Shown here piece after piece: positions 2,299 through 20,900 of a stretch of 21,777 bases of DNA (position 1 is the first letter of the stretch; the number at the start of each line of letters is the position of its first letter). The notes under the pieces were generated by a model that was not told the origin of the DNA, made no database searches, and worked only from the letters and a program-made list of their open reading frames with translations. The position numbers and the translations under genes are program-made. Source of the stretch: a virus; IMG/VR virus record IMGVR_UViG_3300036814_000109, positions 1 through 21,777 of that record; one strand, 5' to 3'.

Positions 2299-2815
2299 AA
2301 TTAGTCACGACGTAAAAGAGGCGCTGCAGATAACAACCCTAGCCTTCACGCTTTTGGCAAAACGCGACATATATTCAAATGAAGCCTTGGAAATGGCCGC
2401 TGAGCACATGGAACATAACGCAAAACACGACAAAGAAACGGGGGACGAACTACTGTTACTGGCTACAATAATACGCAACGGGATTGTGGACTGTAACGGT
2501 GCCCCAACCGGAACAAACCCAAGAAGCGAGAAGTTGGACTTACTTAAGCAGCACGCAGAACAAGGTGATGCGGAAGCGCAGTTCAATCTTGGTGTGATGT
2601 ACGACAACGGTGATGGCGTAGCGCAGAACTACGCCGAAGCTGTGCGCTGGTACCGGCTAGCAGCAAAGCAGGGTTATGCGGTTGCGCAGAACTATCTTGG
2701 CGCGATGTACGACAACGGTGAGGGCGTAGAGCGGGACCATGAGGAAGCTGTGCGATGGTACCGGCTAGCAGATGGACAGGAAAATGAAGGAGAAGACTAT
2801 GTTAGCTATAGGTAA
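2282..2815 (+). CDS. Sel1-repeat protein
   Basis: A 177-residue protein starting at the ATG preceded by AAGGAG (2269-2274) with 7-nt spacing. The longer in-frame TTG start at 2234 has no such site. Residues 1-80 form a charged, helical N-terminal region not recognised as a family. Residues 95-130 and 131-166 are two 36-residue Sel1-type (TPR-like) repeats with the A-x2-LG-x-MYDNG-x-GV and EAVRWYRLA signatures. Sel1 repeats are alpha-solenoid protein-interaction modules. The protein sits between the MoxR ATPase and its likely VWA partner, and its end overlaps the next gene by 17 nt, so an adaptor role in that complex is a reasonable inference. No signal peptide is seen. Confidence 0.85.
   Translation: MSKLDEISHDVKEALQITTLAFTLLAKRDIYSNEALEMAAEHMEHNAKHDKETGDELLLLATIIRNGIVDCNGAPTGTNPRSEKLDLLKQHAEQGDAEAQFNLGVMYDNGDGVAQNYAEAVRWYRLAAKQGYAVAQNYLGAMYDNGEGVERDHEEAVRWYRLADGQENEGEDYVSYR
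2597..2771 (+). repeat. recent 108-bp internal duplication (Sel1 units)
   Basis: The two Sel1 units are similar at DNA level with a 108-bp period. A 17-mer at 2597-2613 recurs exactly at 2705-2721, and the 28 bases at 2636-2663 recur at 2744-2771 with one mismatch. Near-identity that includes silent positions points to recent duplication or gene conversion rather than ancient repeat divergence. Confidence 0.8.
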
Positions 2816-4058
2816 ACAGCTTACCCCAGAGCAACGACTGTCCAAAGCTGTCGTTGACATCATGGGCAACCCTAAATACGTCGCTCTCGCAGGTGTCCTC
2901 ATGATCGGTGATCGTTCAGTGGTGGACAACATACCAACGGCATGTACCAACGGGCGTGACGAGACGTATGGGCGAGCCTATGTTGACTCGCTCAACGATG
3001 CAGAACTACGGTTCCTTGTGCTTCATGAGGTTTACCATAAGCTGTATAAACACCTTACTACATGGCGACATCTGTACGACCAAGATGGAGAGCTTGCCAA
3101 TCAAGCGTGTGACTATGTAATCAACATCAAGATTACAGATGACAACCCAGATGGTTGGGCAGTCATGCCCGAAGGTGGGTGCCTCGATGTGAAGTACCGT
3201 GACTGGGACAGCGCCGCAGTCTTTATTGACCGACGTGATAACGGCTCACCACAAAACGGCAACGATGACACCTGTCAAGATAGCATAGTACCCACAGGTG
3301 ATAACGGCTCACCCCAAGATGGCGACGAGGGGTCAGGTGATTCATCACCTAAAGGTTTCGACAGCCATGACTGGGATGGTGCCGCCGAACTTACACCAGA
3401 TGAGAAGCGCGAGTTAGCACGTGATGTTGACGAGGCAATACGCCAAGGCGCGTTGATCGCAGGTAAGATGGGCAGTGGTGGTGATCGTGACCTTGAGGAT
3501 TTGCTAGCGCCGCAGATAGATTGGCGCGAGGTATTGCGTGAGTTTATTCAGACCACATGCGCAGGTAATGACTACTCAACATGGCAACGACCTAACAGGC
3601 GTTACGTGTCATCAGGTTATTATATGCCCTCCGGTGTATCCGAGAAAGTTGCCTGTATAGCCGAGCACAACGACATGTCCGGTTCCATCGGTAAGCGTGA
3701 ACAACAGATCATGATAAGTGAGCTGGTTGGTATCTGTGAGGCGGTTAAGCCTGACGAGTTACACGTAAGCTATTGGGACACCAAAGTGTGTGGGTATGAG
3801 AAGTACGCTGGTGATGAACTGGATACGGTTGCGTCTAAGACAAAACCTGTAGGTGGTGGCGGCACTGACGTGCGTTGTGTACCGCAGTATCTTCGTGAGA
3901 ACGGTATCAAGCCGCAAGCCTCTATCGTGTTTACAGATGGCTACATCTACGGCGGTTGGGGTACGTGGGATCATCCTGTGTTGTGGGTGATCGTGGATAA
4001 CAAGAATGCCAAGCCTGATACAGGTAAGTACATAAACATAACATCAAGGGAGATGTAA
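2799..4058 (+). CDS. DUF2201-type putative metallopeptidase with VWA-like domain
   Basis: A 419-residue protein. The start at 2799 is chosen because AAGGAG (2787-2792) lies 6 nt upstream; the in-frame ATG at 2772 lies further inside the Sel1 gene. The N-terminal domain carries a zinc-type HEVYH motif (76-80) in LRFLVLHEVYHKLYKHL. A low-complexity Asp/Gly/Ser/Pro linker spans about 147-190 and contains a repeated DNGSPQ. The C-terminal domain has a complete MIDAS-like metal site: DMSGS (292-296), T356 in GGGGTD and D380 in FTDG. This order matches DUF2201 proteins, which are commonly paired with MoxR ATPases. The VWA part would contact the ATPase and the HExxH part could cleave or merely bind a substrate. 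Actual proteolysis is unproven for the family. Confidence 0.88.
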   Translation: MLAIGKQLTPEQRLSKAVVDIMGNPKYVALAGVLMIGDRSVVDNIPTACTNGRDETYGRAYVDSLNDAELRFLVLHEVYHKLYKHLTTWRHLYDQDGELANQACDYVINIKITDDNPDGWAVMPEGGCLDVKYRDWDSAAVFIDRRDNGSPQNGNDDTCQDSIVPTGDNGSPQDGDEGSGDSSPKGFDSHDWDGAAELTPDEKRELARDVDEAIRQGALIAGKMGSGGDRDLEDLLAPQIDWREVLREFIQTTCAGNDYSTWQRPNRRYVSSGYYMPSGVSEKVACIAEHNDMSGSIGKREQQIMISELVGICEAVKPDELHVSYWDTKVCGYEKYAGDELDTVASKTKPVGGGGTDVRCVPQYLRENGIKPQASIVFTDGYIYGGWGTWDHPVLWVIVDNKNAKPDTGKYINITSREM

Positions 4059-13364: not shown

Positions 13365-13476
13365 GGAAATTGTCAAAGTAATCGAACTACGTCACGGTGA
13401 GGAAATATGCCCTCACCGTGGCGGTTATGGGTGGACCAATGGAGACAAAAACATTTTTGTCGAAGGCGCTAAGTAG
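13351..13476 (+). CDS. possible 41-residue overlapping ORF
   Basis: A frame running from a double ATG (13351, 13354) inside the end of the SSB-like gene to a TAG at 13476, within the primase-helicase gene. It reads MMKTKEIVKVIELRHGEEIC, then PHRGGYGWTNGDKNIFVEGA and a final Lys. It spans the gap 13365-13438 that otherwise has no gene and contains the whole 13-bp inverted repeat. The ribosome-binding site is weak. The sequence looks protein-like, but the ORF is short and unrecognised. Confidence 0.4.
   Translation: MMKTKEIVKVIELRHGEEICPHRGGYGWTNGDKNIFVEGAK
13390..13423 (+). promoter_or_regulatory. 13-bp hairpin before the primase-helicase gene
   Basis: Bases 13390-13402 pair with 13411-13423 (12 Watson-Crick pairs and one G-T) around the 8-nt loop AAATATGC. 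The inner ten pairs, CACGGTGAGG/CCTCACCGTG, are perfect. It lies just 5' of the candidate primase-helicase starts (13427, 13439), and a GTG start at 13397 would be inside the stem. There is no T tract, so it is not a classical terminator. Translational control, RNase processing or an origin structure are possible. Confidence 0.6.
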
Positions 13477-16258
13477 TGGCGGCTACTACTGTGTGTTTTC
13501 GGCGCGATCAAGTGATGAACGCAAAGCACAGAAGTTCTACGACACAATAGATGCCGTTGTCGATGCCGCCCACAATTATGATAAAGAAGGATACGATGTC
13601 TATTACGGCCTAGCCACGTTTGATAAGGCAGGTTCACGTAAAGTCGATAACGTAAAGAGATTAAGCGCGTTCTTCCTCGATCTGGACTGTGGTCCAAGCA
13701 AAGAATTTTTAACTCAAGAACAGGCTATACAGGCGTTAAGGCGTTTCTGTAAGCGCAACAAACTACCGAAACCAACGATGGTCAATTCGGGGAGAGGCAT
13801 CCATGTTTACTGGTTCCTATCAGAGTCGGTGTGCTTAGATGATTGGTTGCCTGTAGCGGAACGGCTTAAAAGGTTATGTGCACAGCAAGATTTTTACGCT
13901 GATCCCGCAGTAACCTCAGATGCGGCACGTGTGTTGAGAGTTCCTCACACACATAACTATAAGACCACCCCCCCATCAGACGTAGGATTTTTTGGCCTTA
14001 CCGCCAAATTCGAGACGGTAGACTTTGATACGTTTTCAGAGTTGCTTGGGTCTGAGTCGATACCAGTTCCTACGAAAAACACACCAAGGGAACTAAGCAC
14101 GACTATGCAAAACCTGATGGGTAATCAGGAAAACAAGTTTAAAGATATACTTATTAAGACCCAGAAGGGTGAAGGATGTGAACAGCTTAAATACATAGTC
14201 CGAAATCAAGAGACTATGAGCGAACCATTGTGGAGGGCAGGGCTATCTATTGCTAAGTTCTGCACCGATGGGGAGAGAGCAATACACCTCATGTCCAAAG
14301 GACATCCTGACTACACACCAGACGATACGAAACGTAAGGTGGAGCAAATAAAAGGGCCTTATACATGCGTACGCTTTGACGAATACAACCCCGACATCTG
14401 TAGAGATTGCCCCCAATGGGGCATCATAAAGTCTCCTATCGTGTTGGGTAAGAAGTTACGTGAGGCTGAGATTGATGACGAGGGAAACTATGTAGCGGAA
14501 AGCATCGAAGAAGACGAGCCGACCTACGTTATACCCAAGTACCCACCGCCCTATGTGCGTGGGTCAAACGGTGGTGTGTATATACGTACCGCCAACGAAG
14601 ACGGCGATATAGACGAGAAGCGTATATACCATAACGACTTATACGTAGTTAAGCGGATCAGAGACCCCGAGATGGGCGAGTCACTGGTTATGCGTCTGCA
14701 CCTTCCTCGAGATGGGGTGCAAGAGTTCTCATTGCCGATGAGTTCAGTCACGTCTAGTGAAGAGTTTAGAAAGAAACTTTCATCCCAAGGCGTAGCGGTT
14801 AAAAAGATGGATGAATTGATGTCATACACACTAAGTTGGGTGGACGAACTACAAGCCACCAGTACAGCAGACGATGCTCACGTTCAGTTTGGGTGGGTTA
14901 ACGACAAGATGGATACGTTTATTCTAGGCAACCAGAAGGTCAAACCTGACTGCATAGAATTTAACCCCCCTGCCAATCAGACGGTAGGGTTTTTCCCCCA
15001 CTTTGAACCCAAGGGTACATACGAAGTGTGGCGTGAGAACTTGGGACTATGGAACGATGATAAGTTTCTACTACAACAATTCGCGCTTGGTATGGGTTTC
15101 GGTAGTCCACTAATGGAATTGCTCAACGAAAGTTGCGGTGCAGTAGCGTTCATTAACAACGAATCAGGCACAGGCAAAACCATGATGATGTACGCCACAG
15201 CAGGTATTTGGGGCAACCCAAAGAGACTTGTTTTGGATAAAGCCGATAGCGTTGCGTTTAAGATGAACCGTGCCGAGGTTATGCACAGTCTCCCAACGGG
15301 TATTGACGAAATTACCAATTTAACACCTCGGCAAATGTCCGACCTTATATATCAAGGTACGTCCGGTAGGCAGCGAGGACGTATGACTGCTAGTGCGAAC
15401 GTGGAGCGGCACCAAGGTAGGGAGTGGGGTTTGTTGATGCAGTACACGGCGAACGCTTCCGTTATTGAGACAGTCAGTCGTGGTAAGGCTATGCCGAAAG
15501 CGGAAGCACAGCGCATACTTGAGTGTCGGGTGGATCGTATATTCGACAAGGTGAAAGACAAAGAACTGCAAGATACGTTTAAGAGTAACGTCTTTGGGAA
15601 CTACGGACATGCAGGCCCCCCCTACATACAGTGGGTAATGAAGAATTTAGAAGAGGCAAGAGCGATAGTAAAGAAGGTACAGAGGCGGGTGGATGAAAAG
15701 GCACAGCTAACATCTGAAAATCGTTACTGGTCGGACACACTTACTGCGACAATATCAGGGTTGATAATCTCAAAGAAGGTTGGGCTTCACGACTTTGATG
15801 TATCGAAAGTGTTTAACTGGGCGTGTACCGATCTTATAGCGCAAAACAAACGAGGGCTATCTGAAATGGGTGGCTCAGTACAGGATATTATGGGCGACTT
15901 TTTTGCAGAAAACATAAGTTATATTCTGCAAATCAAAAGCACCGCAGACAACCGTGGAACACATGGTAACGGGCTTGATGAACATGTTATCCCCGAACAG
16001 GTAGCGCGGGGCAAATTAGTAGCCCGATACGAAACTGACACCAAACTATTTTACGTCAAACCAAAACCCCTTAAAGAATGGTGTGGTGAGTTACAGATTA
16101 ACTACGCGCATCTGAAAAGCGAAATCTTTGCTAAATGCGAGGGTAGAAGTAAGAAAGTGCGGATAACGAAAGGCACTCTTTTGGAATTGGGTTCCACTGA
16201 TGTGATTATAATGAAGTTCGATACGGGTTCTGGTGATGAAGGTATTGAAGACGTATGA
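13439..16258 (+). CDS. AEP-type primase fused to DUF927-like helicase
   Basis: About 939 residues from the ATG at 13439 (METKTFLSKAL). In-frame ATG 13427 and GTG 13397 are alternatives and all have weak ribosome-binding sites. Numbered from 13397, the primase part shows the catalytic FFLDLDCG (92-99), SGRGIHVYWF (131-140) and the RVPHTHNYKT element (181-190), as in archaeo-eukaryotic primases. A C-x10-C-x2-C cluster (324-338) precedes the helicase part. There, Walker A is NESGTGKT (588-595) and the Walker-B-like GIDEIT is at 635-640, in a DUF927-like ATPase context. It would unwind and prime the phage DNA for the family A polymerase. The gene overlaps the next one by 23 nt. Confidence 0.92.
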   Translation: METKTFLSKALSSGGYYCVFSARSSDERKAQKFYDTIDAVVDAAHNYDKEGYDVYYGLATFDKAGSRKVDNVKRLSAFFLDLDCGPSKEFLTQEQAIQALRRFCKRNKLPKPTMVNSGRGIHVYWFLSESVCLDDWLPVAERLKRLCAQQDFYADPAVTSDAARVLRVPHTHNYKTTPPSDVGFFGLTAKFETVDFDTFSELLGSESIPVPTKNTPRELSTTMQNLMGNQENKFKDILIKTQKGEGCEQLKYIVRNQETMSEPLWRAGLSIAKFCTDGERAIHLMSKGHPDYTPDDTKRKVEQIKGPYTCVRFDEYNPDICRDCPQWGIIKSPIVLGKKLREAEIDDEGNYVAESIEEDEPTYVIPKYPPPYVRGSNGGVYIRTANEDGDIDEKRIYHNDLYVVKRIRDPEMGESLVMRLHLPRDGVQEFSLPMSSVTSSEEFRKKLSSQGVAVKKMDELMSYTLSWVDELQATSTADDAHVQFGWVNDKMDTFILGNQKVKPDCIEFNPPANQTVGFFPHFEPKGTYEVWRENLGLWNDDKFLLQQFALGMGFGSPLMELLNESCGAVAFINNESGTGKTMMMYATAGIWGNPKRLVLDKADSVAFKMNRAEVMHSLPTGIDEITNLTPRQMSDLIYQGTSGRQRGRMTASANVERHQGREWGLLMQYTANASVIETVSRGKAMPKAEAQRILECRVDRIFDKVKDKELQDTFKSNVFGNYGHAGPPYIQWVMKNLEEARAIVKKVQRRVDEKAQLTSENRYWSDTLTATISGLIISKKVGLHDFDVSKVFNWACTDLIAQNKRGLSEMGGSVQDIMGDFFAENISYILQIKSTADNRGTHGNGLDEHVIPEQVARGKLVARYETDTKLFYVKPKPLKEWCGELQINYAHLKSEIFAKCEGRSKKVRITKGTLLELGSTDVIIMKFDTGSGDEGIEDV

Positions 16259-16457: not shown

Positions 16458-16490
16458 TTAAGTCTTTAACTTTTTTATCTGGAGGACCGA

Positions 16491-16604
16491 ATGGGACGAG
16501 TGAGCGACTGGTACATCGAGCTTGAGGAACGCGGCTTAATATTGGTTGACGAGGTTATGGAGCCGAATCTCCCTGAACCCGAACCCGAAGAGGAAGAAGA
16601 ATGA
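16491..16604 (+). CDS. small acidic protein with Pro-Glu tail, 37 residues
   Basis: The ATG has a strong GGAGG 5 nt upstream and the stop overlaps the next start (ATGA). The protein is MGRVSDWYIELEERGLILVD followed by EVMEPNLPEPEPEEEEE, so it ends in an acidic Glu-Pro/Glu tail similar in style to the linker of the GcrA-like protein two genes downstream. No family is recognised. The strong initiation site and packing support expression. Confidence 0.6.
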   Translation: MGRVSDWYIELEERGLILVDEVMEPNLPEPEPEEEEE

Positions 16605-16780
16605 ATAAGACACAAGAATACAACGAGTTGATGCAGAGCAATTTAATGCAAGCGTACTCTAGCCACCCACGTAATAGGACGAGGGGCCACTTCAAAACAG
16701 AAGAAGAGGGCGAAGCGTTATGCGAACGAGCGCGTAGCAGCATAGAGGCTATACAGAGTTTTGTCAGGAGGAAGAAATGA
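16601..16780 (+). CDS. small hypothetical protein, 59 residues
   Basis: Overlaps both neighbours by ATGA (start at 16601, stop at 16780 against the next ATG at 16777). It begins MNKTQEYNELMQSNLMQAYS, is polar, and ends basic (FVRRKK). No domain is recognised. The paired overlaps argue for a translated gene in a coupled string leading to the GcrA-like gene. Confidence 0.6.
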   Translation: MNKTQEYNELMQSNLMQAYSSHPRNRTRGHFKTEEEGEALCERARSSIEAIQSFVRRKK

Positions 16781-17247
16781 AGCTCGCGTATAAGTTGTGG
16801 ACAAAGAAACATACAGACCAACTACGAAAGCTACGTGCGACAGGACTTACGTTCAACCAGATAGGTGTAATGCTGGAGAGGTCTAAGAACAGCGTGATTG
16901 GCAAAGCGCATAGGCTCGGAATATTCTCCCAACCTGAATTTGAACCGGAACCTGAACCGGAACCTGAACCGGAACCTGAACCGGAACCTGAAGCTGTAAA
17001 AACGAGCGTTTATGTAAAGCCGGTGGTGCGGGTAGCTAAGCCCGCAATCGCAGCCCGACACGTAGGCTTAGCAGAATTGGAGCGAGATGAGTGCCGATAC
17101 CCCGTGGGTAAAGATGTAAGCGTGCCCGGTGCACATTTATTTTGCGGTACGCCTACACGCGATAAATCTTCATACTGTAAGGCACACCACAATATTGTGT
17201 GGCAGCAAATGCCAACGCGGGTAAGAGACCGGGGGTATCGACTATGA
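16777..17247 (+). CDS. GcrA-like transcriptional regulator with Glu-Pro rod
   Basis: A 156-residue protein starting after AGGAGG (16766-16771). The N-terminal helix-turn-helix (about 8-50: WTKKHTDQLRKLRATGLTFN, then QIGVMLERSKNSVIGKAHRLGI) is the GcrA DNA-binding signature, including NSVIGKAHRLG. The C-terminal domain CRYPVG...HLFCG...YCKAHH (106-138) matches the GcrA region that, in Caulobacter, contacts sigma70 and includes the conserved Cys/His residues. The two are joined by 17 residues of alternating Glu-Pro (56-72) followed by a Lys/Val/Pro stretch. Host GcrA acts at GANTC sites methylated by CcrM. A phage copy could redirect host RNA polymerase or exploit methylation state. No methyltransferase is in the window. 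Confidence 0.9.
   Translation: MKLAYKLWTKKHTDQLRKLRATGLTFNQIGVMLERSKNSVIGKAHRLGIFSQPEFEPEPEPEPEPEPEPEPEAVKTSVYVKPVVRVAKPAIAARHVGLAELERDECRYPVGKDVSVPGAHLFCGTPTRDKSSYCKAHHNIVWQQMPTRVRDRGYRL
16942..16989 (+). repeat. tandem 12-bp repeat (GAACCGGAACCT) x4
   Basis: Four perfect copies of GAACCGGAACCT lie in frame within the GcrA-like gene and encode eight Glu-Pro pairs. Exact identity of the units, with strictly alternating CCG and CCT proline codons, indicates recent expansion by slippage, so copy number is likely to vary between relatives. Confidence 0.9.
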
Positions 17248-17453
17248 AAAATTACGGGACGCTATACGAGACTAACGTACTTCTAAGTGTGGCGTCGTAC
17301 TTGCTACAAGCCGCCGGAATGTGGCTTTTCGCGTTGGCGGTTGGTGTTTTTGTAACTGTGCGACCAAGCGATTGGACGTTTGGTCTTATCGCGTCATTTG
17401 GCCTGTGTGTAGTCGCGGCTGGTTGTTTTCGCGTAGCCGAAAGGTGGAGATAA
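17244..17453 (+). CDS. small membrane protein, two predicted segments
   Basis: A 69-residue protein starting at an ATGA overlap with the GcrA-like stop; GGGGG lies upstream. Hydrophobic segments at about 14-38 (LSVASYLLQAAGMWLFALAV then GVFVT) and 44-62 (WTFGLIASFGLCVVAAGCF) are separated by a short RPSD turn, and the C-terminus is basic (RVAERWR). Size and layout are compatible with a two-span holin or another small inner-membrane protein. No lysin or spanin gene is visible beside it, so the lysis role is only a possibility. Confidence 0.68.
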   Translation: MKNYGTLYETNVLLSVASYLLQAAGMWLFALAVGVFVTVRPSDWTFGLIASFGLCVVAAGCFRVAERWR

Positions 17454-17569
17454 TGGATGCCGCGACAGCGATGTTATTGTTCGCTGCAGGATTTGCGTTC
17501 TGTATGTTCATAAATTGGTTAGGAAACGGTGGGCGTGGCGGCAAGGGCTGTGACCCAGAAGAAGGTTAA
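17453..17569 (+). CDS. tiny single-span membrane protein, 38 residues
   Basis: Starts at a TAATG junction with the previous gene, with GGTGGAGA upstream. One hydrophobic segment (about 4-23, ATAMLLFAAGFAFCMFINWL) is followed by a Gly-rich, charged tail (GNGGRGGKGCDPEEG). Together with the preceding gene it forms a pair of co-translated small membrane proteins. No family is recognised. Confidence 0.58.
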   Translation: MDAATAMLLFAAGFAFCMFINWLGNGGRGGKGCDPEEG

Positions 17570-17581
17570 AGGAGCCTCATA

Positions 17582-17881
17582 ATGGAGAAGACTTCTCATG
17601 TAATACGGGCGCGAGACCAAAATCGCGCGGCCAGGGGGGCTTTGGCTAAGAAGATAGCGCGAGCAGACGAAATGCGAAAAGCTGCGCTTCTCGACGAAGC
17701 TATCAATAGGTCAAACGCGGTACGGTATAACGCGGTGCTGACACGCGCGAAGCCGGGGAGTTTAGAACTACTCCTGCATAGCAGAGTGCGGGGTATGTCG
17801 GAAGCGAGCTTAATTCGGATTTGGGGTCGTGAATTAGTCTCGGCTGCACGGGGTTTACAAAAACCAAGCTGTAGTGTGTGA
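17582..17881 (+). CDS. basic hypothetical protein, 99 residues
   Basis: The last rightward gene, with AAAGGAG 7 nt before the ATG. The protein is rich in Arg and Ala and largely helical (NRAARGALAKKIARADEMRK in the first third), with a SLELLLHSRVRGMSEASLIR stretch in the second half. No motif or family is recognised. It may be DNA- or RNA-binding because of its charge. It ends 34 bp from the stop of the oppositely oriented giant gene. Confidence 0.65.
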   Translation: MEKTSHVIRARDQNRAARGALAKKIARADEMRKAALLDEAINRSNAVRYNAVLTRAKPGSLELLLHSRVRGMSEASLIRIWGRELVSAARGLQKPSCSV

Positions 17882-17915
17882 GGTCGTTGCTCGTATAATT
17901 GATCTTCGAGCGGGG

Positions 17916-20900
17916 TTACCTCGTTGGTGGCATGAATCCGTTTCTTAGCCCATAAAGCTGATCCTCTGCGACTCTACGCATCGCCGGGGACAGTGACATA
18001 CCGTTATACATCTCTTCAGAACTTTTCATATGTTGCTTCAGTGAGCTGTTGATTGAGTCAGTAGTCAGTTCAAAGCTAGGATGCTCACTGTTAAACTTTT
18101 GAATTTCACGTTCTAACCGCCCAATCTCAGCCCAATCCATTTGTCGTGCGGCGATGTAGTATTTTCTAGTCAGGCTAGATCGTTGGTTAGATATTGCAAT
18201 ATCTATACGTTTTAGACGTTGATTCTCTTCTTGAATACGTATGTATTCTGCTGGAGCGAATCCTAGGAACTGTGTAAACAACTCACCACCTGTCATATCG
18301 TCATAGATAGGATCAGTACGACGTGTGTATATACCTCCGTCTTGTTGGTATCGCCCCAAAACCTTATACGCATTGGCGAAACCGACAGGTAGCAGGTTCT
18401 CCACCCCCCTCTGCATCTCACCATTGTATAAATCTACAAGGCCACGACCTGTGCGTTTCGCCACACTGAGTGCAGGGCCACCGATATAATAGCCAACGAA
18501 CTCCTCGGCAGACGGGTCAGGGTTGAACCTGTTCTCCTGAAGAATCAAACCCGTTAGACGTATACGTGATGCCACGTCAGCACCCATACCAACTTCATCT
18601 AGTATCTGGTTAAACGCGCCTTTGAACCAACCTTCTCCGACAGCGTTGCGGACAATTGCGTTAGTGTCGTCTTTATCATCATCAAATAGGAGCAAGTCTG
18701 CTAGTAATTGCACAGCACCGTATAATGGAACACCGTGCACCCCTGCAAAGAACAATGAAGACAGATGTACAGCCGCAATTTGTTTTGCGGCTATCTTACG
18801 AGTTTCGGCGTCACTCTCTAATGCCAGTAAGTCACGCGCAGATTTGAACATCGTGTAGTACATACGTAGCCCATAGGTCTTGTACATACCGGCAACACGC
18901 CCAATACCTTCTTGCGTGATACGTGGTGCAGTCTCAAGGGTAGAACCACCATTGTATTCTTGTGTATCGAATAGTGCCTCTACTGCCGCTAGGTTTTGTT
19001 GTTCAGCCGTAGGCATCTTGGGGTTATCAGCCGCAATACGTTCTAACGCCAAATTGTATGACGCAACCATAGTCACCTGCCTGTTAAAGCGTTCTGCTTG
19101 GTTAAACAACATGGCAGATATACCCGTAGCCCAATCAAGCACCGCAGCTAATTTACGTGCTGCCGTGTCAGTTCTACGTGCTTTACCGCCCTCTTGATGT
19201 CCGAGAGCGGCCAAGGTATATGATTGTTTAAGGTGTCCACGTTCCGACGCCATACGCACCAGTGGAGCCATACGCTCTAACTCTTTTAGACGCTCCGCAG
19301 GTATGTCTTTATCTTTTTTGACAACAAAGTCACCATTATCGGTGATGTCATAGTAGGCATCTAACCCGTGTGCGACTGATATTTTTTCTAATATAGTCTC
19401 GCCGTAGCCCCGTGCGCCTATCACAAACGATACAGCGTTCATAATTTCGTTGTATGTTTTCTTGTACCCGTACCGTGCTCCAAGCATCGGATAGGTAAAC
19501 ATCGGGGTCTGCGCTGTCTGCACCATTGCAGAAGCTGTGTTAAAGCCGATTGTGCCTACAAACGCGGTTTGGTTAAACGTACGAACATACCGCTCAACAC
19601 CTTTCATCTTTGCGCCATACTTGGCAAAGTTCATGCGTATTTTAATTTCTTCACGTATTGTATTGAATTGTAAGTCTTTTCCAGCTCCAACGCCGCCAAT
19701 CCACGCGCTAGCTCCTTTATAGTCAGGCACTTCTAGTTCGTTAAGACGTACCTCCATACTTTGAATAAGCGCGTTGTACTTTAACTTCTCTACCTGCATA
19801 CCCAAATCAAAGCCTTTGCTCTTCATAGCATAGACCGCATCCTGCATATATCCGGGCGTACCCTTACGTTTTTGCAGGGACTTAGCGAATGATGACTCCG
19901 GTAGCGCATCAATGAATAGACGCATGATTTCAGATTGTACTGTGTCATCAACATTGTTTGCACTTAATGAATCAAGCACTTGTTTTACAAATGAGGATGA
20001 CGGTGCGTTGTTAAAGTCAGACGTTTTAAAGTCACCATCCATACCTTTAACAGTATTTGATATAACCTTGGGGTCTTTCTTTAACTCGGTTAAAACTCGG
20101 TCGCGTTGCCGTTTACTGTCAAACATCTGGAACACATACTTAGCGTTCTCTGATTTGACCGCGCTGTCTTTATATTGGAACTCTAATTTGTAAGGGCCTT
20201 CACGTAACAGCGGGAAATAAACATCTAATGTATTACCATCAAACAACTTAGCAAATACTTCTTTCTTTAGCTCTGCGGCTGCATCAGGGTTATCACGTAG
20301 TGCTGCGTCAATACGCCCGTTAATCGCATCTTTAAGTTTTCCGTACAGGTCACGGTACAGGTCACGCATCGTGCGGTAGGCTTTCTGCCCATCAGGACCT
20401 AGTGCATTCCAGTCCTTACGTTGCGCATCCCAAACTTTTTCTAAGCTGTTACCGCTTTCGTCTGTCTTATCTTTATATGTGCTACGGGGTTTAGTTGGGT
20501 CTACCTGATAGATAGTAGCCCCGTACTCTTGGCTGTATATTAAATCGTTAAGGTTCTTTTGCTTCTCTTTAATACCACCAAGACTAGCGATCCACTTATC
20601 TACAACCTTTACTTGACCACGTACAAAGTCGTCAGCACGTGATATTGAGCCAGTTTGTCGCTCCATCAACTCGTGAAACTCTAACGCAAGTTTACCTAGT
20701 TTGGTGTCAGCTCTTTTAGCTACATCGCTAAGAGCCTGTGAATCCAGTAATTTTAATTTGATAGTTGTTAGCTCTCCTCCCAAACTGGAGAGCGAATCGA
20801 ACATACCATCAGCCCACTCCTCACGGAATTTATCAGTCAGAGGTAGATGTAACGCTTTTTGCGTATCATCTATTCCTTTCATCTCTTCTTTAACCCCCTT

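Follow-up and report, generated by a model that had tools for sequence, protein, structure and literature searches.

The window analyzed here is a 21,777-nucleotide stretch of viral DNA (IMG/VR record IMGVR_UViG_3300036814_000109, positions 1 to 21,777). Its plus strand carries a gcrA-like gene whose 156-residue product, P0001, runs from an ATG at 16777 to a stop codon at 17245-17247, as translation of the open reading frame (ORF) confirmed for the coordinates and frame given by an earlier, sequence-only reading. A Shine-Dalgarno-like AGGAGG is found upstream of the ATG. The gene and its surroundings are organized as follows:

16464-17916, plus strand: accessory cassette holding gcrA, between a 74-aa ORF and a convergent LPD39 gene; absent from sister phages, with flanks matching at 77 to 95% nucleotide identity
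16491-16604, plus strand: 37-aa ORF of the cassette, ending in EPNLPEPEPEEEEE; no Pfam match
16601-16780, plus strand: 59-aa ORF, its stop overlapping the gcrA start (ATGA)
16777-17247, plus strand: gcrA-like gene (P0001), assigned from Pfam PF07750, a phmmer match to PDB 7ye1, and model matches to 5yiv and 5yix
16777-16923, plus strand: predicted DNA-binding domain (DBD) of the helix-turn-helix (HTH) type, residues 1 to 49 (5yiv match, pLDDT)
16941-16992, plus strand: tandem array of a 12-bp unit (TGAACCGGAACC; TRF, period 12), 4.3 copies, 100% identical, encoding a Glu-Pro tract (also supported by a shuffle test and by a 6-bp addition in contigs L002 and L003)
16942-16992, plus strand: (EP)8E tract, residues 56 to 72 (17 residues), the acidic linker segment adjoining the DBD (translation, net charge)
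16993-17061, plus strand: second linker half, basic and rich in Val, Lys, and Pro, residues 73 to 95 (sequence, net charge +2)
17062-17220, plus strand: predicted sigma-interacting domain (SID), approximately residues 96 to 148, with C106, C123, C134, and H137 (5yix_B match, Cys/His conservation)
17244-17453, plus strand: 69-aa hydrophobic ORF, its start overlapping the gcrA stop (ATGA)

The overlap between the 59-aa ORF and gcrA suggests translational coupling, and, judged by gene arrangement, the co-directional small genes with their ATGA overlaps have the layout of an expressed, translationally coupled gene. Scans for sigma70-like promoters and terminators near gcrA gave nothing above shuffled sequences. 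An ORF on the reverse strand (16831-17061) was rejected as a gene, being merely the complement of the repeat.

PF07750 (GcrA) matches residues 8 to 148 of P0001 with an E value of 5e-22 and 79.4 bits (curated Pfam cutoff, 26.9 bits), and a phmmer search of the PDB retrieves 7ye1, the GcrA of Caulobacter crescentus, with an E value of 3e-9; P0001 and C. crescentus GcrA share 34% identity. The AlphaFold2 model, built with 78 homologues, has pLDDT values of 93 to 96 across HTH residues 11 to 50 and at least 90 over most of the C-terminal domain, and its four best Foldseek matches are the four distinct GcrA structures. In VIA-align comparisons, the modeled HTH superimposes on 5yiv_A (GcrA-DBD on methylated DNA) with a Z score of 7.2 and 0.8 Å over 44 residues (43% identity), and the modeled SID superimposes on 5yix_B (SID with sigma70 domain 2) with a Z score of 6.2 and 2.1 Å over 47 residues. 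Unrelated Myb-like domains rank below 5yiv for the DBD with Z scores of about 6, so the DBD fold match is not unique by itself, and the 43% identity and the SID match carry the case. A query with the HTH only returned many weak matches in phages with unrelated hosts, and the HTH alone is thus not diagnostic for GcrA. In the alignment of the 78 homologues, W8, N38, V40, I41, G42, K43, C106, C123, and C134 are invariant and H137 is nearly so; the HTH of P0001 departs from the consensus at several positions (e.g., TKKHT for TDERV). Pfam, phmmer, and the predicted fold together show P0001 to be a member of the GcrA family with a predicted GcrA fold, and they bear out the earlier proposal that both functional ends are kept. 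In the model, neither helix nor strand is predicted for residues 48 to 95, which would form an unstructured linker between the two domains. The features of TonB (N-terminal membrane anchor, C-terminal TonB domain) were not found in P0001, which has HTH and SID instead and no TonB match in Pfam.

The most unusual part of P0001 is this linker, which consists of an acidic rod beside the DBD followed by a weakly basic V/K/P-rich half. The perfect period-12 stretch spans 52 bp in the window; none of 200 third-order Markov shuffles had more than 22 bp, and the array is therefore not due to chance; the 17-residue Glu-Pro rod from exact 12-bp repeats noted previously is thus confirmed. Residues 61 to 70, within the tract, are modeled with fairly high confidence (pLDDT of 85). 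The residues after the rod (AVKTSVYVKPVVRVAKPAIAARHV), earlier described as a Lys-Val-Pro stretch like that of TonB-type rods, do contain much Lys, Val, and Pro but have no regular Lys-Pro repeat. The cassette's 37-aa ORF has an EP/Glu tract at its end too, encoded there by a short GAACCC repeat of its own at 16575-16589. L002 and L003 (IMG/VR phage contigs, 98% identical; L002, L005, and L164 are one contig) have one extra GAACCG, which adds 6 bp and one EP unit in frame. The contig L004 starts inside the array and hence shows it only in part. Each of the four gcrA-carrying records has the array, one of them partially. When a degenerate DNA pattern was built from the EP tract and AVKT, its only matches were the three known carriers. 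The array thus varies in length by a 6-bp unit, a variation seen once; the rod had been described as expanding, which is supported for this single 6-bp step, be it a gain or a loss.

P0001 was compared with 143 homologues, 79 of them cellular GcrAs and 64 further, distinct GcrAs from phages, with linker length counted between the RLG that closes the HTH and the first Cys of the SID. The linker of P0001 has 57 residues, compared with medians of 66 in phages (n = 64) and 83 in cells (n = 79) and with 73 in C. crescentus GcrA; natural GcrA linkers range from about 40 to more than 110 residues and are poorly conserved in both sequence and length. The idea of an extended spacer, part of the sequence-only reading, was rejected on these lengths. 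Charge, not length, is what makes this linker the strongest outlier: the first 25 residues beyond the DBD have a net charge of -10 in P0001, whereas the median is +5 in both groups and the minimum among the 143 homologues is -3. Beyond its first 25 residues, the P0001 linker has a net charge of +2. The longest EP runs elsewhere in the set are 4 residues (phage) and 6 residues (cellular). The linker had been correctly recognized as acidic, but that description stopped short of the inversion relative to the family.

The neighboring DUF927-type protein (13397-16258) was used to recover 39 related viral loci. In 16 sister loci both flanks align with the window, up to 16463 and again from approximately 17917, and between them lie 58 to 586 bp of other DNA, compared with 1,453 bp in the window; because both flanks are kept while the middle differs, gcrA belongs to a cassette that is accessory and occupies a variable site. 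Known carriers aside, no sister locus has a GcrA match, and a whole-record Pfam search of 10 of them was also negative; the presence and absence of the cassette among sister phages show that gcrA is optional. The site (16464-17916), flanked by the 74-aa ORF, which is conserved, and by the LPD39 gene in convergent orientation, may be an accessory-gene hot spot. In L004, the cassette portion corresponding to 16964-17525 is present at 96.6% nucleotide identity beside other genes (DUF6378, PDDEXK nuclease, HNH, and SNF2), and the PDDEXK and SNF2 proteins are only 43% and 56% identical to those of the window. Such close similarity of the cassette between phages whose backbones have diverged is a sign of recent horizontal transfer and, by this sequence comparison, of a gcrA cassette that is mobile between related phage lineages. 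Comparison of L003 (4839-5833) with L004 (1-995) shows L003 to resemble the window on the left and L004 on the right, the changeover falling within the gcrA cassette. Natural recombination or chimeric assembly could each account for L003, and no conclusion rests on it alone.

The core gene order of the window, namely, MoxR-like ATPase, DUF2201, PolA (34.7%), RecB-like nuclease, SNF2 helicase, and DUF927-type protein, is shared with Rhizobium phages RHph_TM3_14A, TM27A/B, and TM29, although the relation is only distant. The genes for the MoxR-like AAA ATPase (1103-2194) and the DUF2201 metallopeptidase/VWA-like protein (2772-4058) enclose one for a Sel1-repeat protein, and the order of the former two is also kept in RHph_TM3_14A. 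Most isolated phages bearing GcrA infect alphaproteobacteria, and an alphaproteobacterial host is likely on these sequence grounds. Clear GcrA matches also occur in two phages recorded as Synechococcus phages, L207 (PP438432.1; Pfam E value, 1.6e-35) and OM868079.1, which is unexpected for a cyanobacterial host. A tblastn search with P0001 as the query had no match among isolated phages. In a tree of 132 homologues, P0001 sits with L071 on a long unresolved branch, not near any cellular GcrA; phylogeny therefore failed to name a donor host.

A host that methylates GANTC had also been proposed; the Rhizobium phage synteny makes an alphaproteobacterial host likely, but the GANTC evidence itself is weak. 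The window has 36 GANTC sites compared with about 68 expected, and CCNGG (9 of 57 expected) and GGNCC (23 of 57 expected) are more depleted. In sister phages without gcrA, the GANTC ratio is 0.51 to 0.95, a similar or weaker depletion, and GANTC depletion was rejected as gcrA-specific evidence, CCNGG and GGNCC being rarer still and the gcrA-free sisters showing such ratios. For contrast, a 25.9-kb stretch of RHph_TM3_14A (L202; MN988472.1, 19630-45537) contains no GANTC where 88 would be expected, which is the picture of strong avoidance. The scarcity of CCNGG extends to close sister phages (ratios of 0.04 to 0.16) and suggests avoidance of a host restriction system. The sequence-only reading had suggested a look at phage promoters for GANTC. 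The window, which is a genome fragment, has five GcrA-type YGAKTCG sites, and none of them falls in the 60 bp that precede an ORF. GANTC-regulated phage promoters are thus not indicated, and host promoters are the more likely targets if P0001 reads GANTC.

The closest characterized protein is C. crescentus GcrA, which has a DBD (residues 1 to 45), an unstructured linker (46 to 107), and a SID (108 to 173) that binds sigma2 and which stimulates open complex formation at methylated promoters (PMC7403470). Its structures (5yiu/5yiv, 5yix, and 7ye1/7ye2) share with P0001 the HTH DBD and a SID with the C..P.G, FCG, and YC..H motifs. Unlike P0001, it follows the DBD with a basic segment (+5 versus -10 over 25 residues) that has no acidic Glu-Pro, and its Arg/Lys-rich residues 45 to 80 are taken as supporting DNA binding (PMC3667746). 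Phage-borne PF07750 proteins are already known from phiCbK (PMC3556154), whose gp222, like P0001, represents the family, as do the homologues in other Caulobacter phages, Brevundimonas phage Bajun, and IMG/VR phages; gcrA is optional in phiCbK-like phages too, five of six carrying it (PMC3556154). The phiCbK and Bajun linkers differ from that of P0001 in being strongly basic (net +16 and +15) and in having no EP tract, and their phage backbone is unrelated to the window. Bajun GcrA (L209; ON529858.1) apparently has two HTH copies before a single SID, with a linker of 136 residues counted from the first. Glu-Pro stretches in TonB form polyproline-II rods, and the TonB linker resembles that of P0001 in having acidic Glu-Pro followed by a basic Lys/Pro-containing stretch (PMC10771500). 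TonB is, however, a periplasmic energy transducer rather than a cytoplasmic transcription factor, and the second half of the P0001 linker is irregular; we regard TonB as a fair physical analogy, with no homology shown.

On balance, P0001 is probably a phage-borne sigma70-binding co-activator acting in infected cells, with a charge-inverted linker that lowers nonspecific DNA contact. We infer sigma70 binding, GANTC reading, activation, and the linker-charge effect for this protein. The C-terminal SID would bind domain 2 of the host main sigma factor, the N-terminal HTH would read promoter DNA (m6A-GANTC in the case of the host family), and P0001 would thereby help RNA polymerase to open chosen promoters during infection. 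The basic, DNA-friendly segment usual after the HTH is replaced by an acidic polyproline-II-like (EP)8E rod and then a short basic half; the effect would be electrostatic rather than one of extra reach, the acidic rod keeping the head off nonspecific DNA, so that P0001 would act mainly via sigma-bound polymerase at specific sites. As part of a mobile cassette, gcrA would be an optional host takeover gene outside the replication core. The lack of YGAKTCG sites close to the ORFs of the window counts against this reading, since phage promoters are not evident targets. So do the departures of its HTH from the consensus and the long branch of P0001, which is not placed near any cellular GcrA and means that its function may have drifted.

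The EP array could also be a slippage product in a little-constrained linker, with no specific role, and P0001 an ordinary phage GcrA. Such neutral drift would agree with the weak conservation of GcrA linkers, the 6-bp change among close relatives, and the EP/E tract at the end of the adjacent 37-aa ORF; yet in the 143 homologues EP runs never exceed 6 residues and no charge next to the DBD is comparable, which makes linker charge look constrained in general, and the array is kept in every gene-carrying record (one in part). We consider drift a possible but doubtful account. The original proposal that a rigid EP rod fixes or lengthens the distance between DNA site and polymerase, with slippage tuning it, appears improbable. 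Stiffness as in the TonB Glu-Pro repeats (PMC10771500), array change in whole EP units with the frame kept, and the model confidence at residues 61 to 70 are compatible with it, but the linker is among the shorter ones in the family, the rod accounts for just 17 residues with some 30 others presumably flexible, so that no distance would be fixed, and the breadth of family linker lengths implies a mechanism that needs no single distance.

An equally improbable role is that of a decoy or dominant-negative protein, which would tie up sigma70 through its SID, bind DNA less well through its HTH because of the acidic tract, and so displace host GcrA and shut down GcrA-dependent cell-cycle promoters. 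The well-conserved SID, the inverted charge beside the HTH, and the fact that many phage sigma-binding proteins are repressors (PMC7403470) would suit this role, but the HTH is retained with a near-perfect fold match and intact invariant residues, and a pure decoy would need no HTH. A further elaboration of the co-activator reading, that a slippable acidic polyproline-II rod sets the DNA affinity of a mobile-cassette sigma70 co-activator and that its length variants tune the capture of host methylation-dependent cell-cycle promoters, is in our judgment a long shot.

That phages carry GcrA homologues has been known since phiCbK, and none of these seems to have been functionally studied in the literature examined; what is new here is the charge-inverted, repeat-variable GcrA linker and the mobile gcrA cassette. 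P0001 offers a natural test of the role of the GcrA linker, since both functional domains are kept and the charge between them is inverted, and if linker charge governs specificity, a linker swap between P0001 and C. crescentus GcrA would reveal it. A gcrA gene that is optional and moves between phage lineages fits the takeover of hosts with GcrA/CcrM cell-cycle control.
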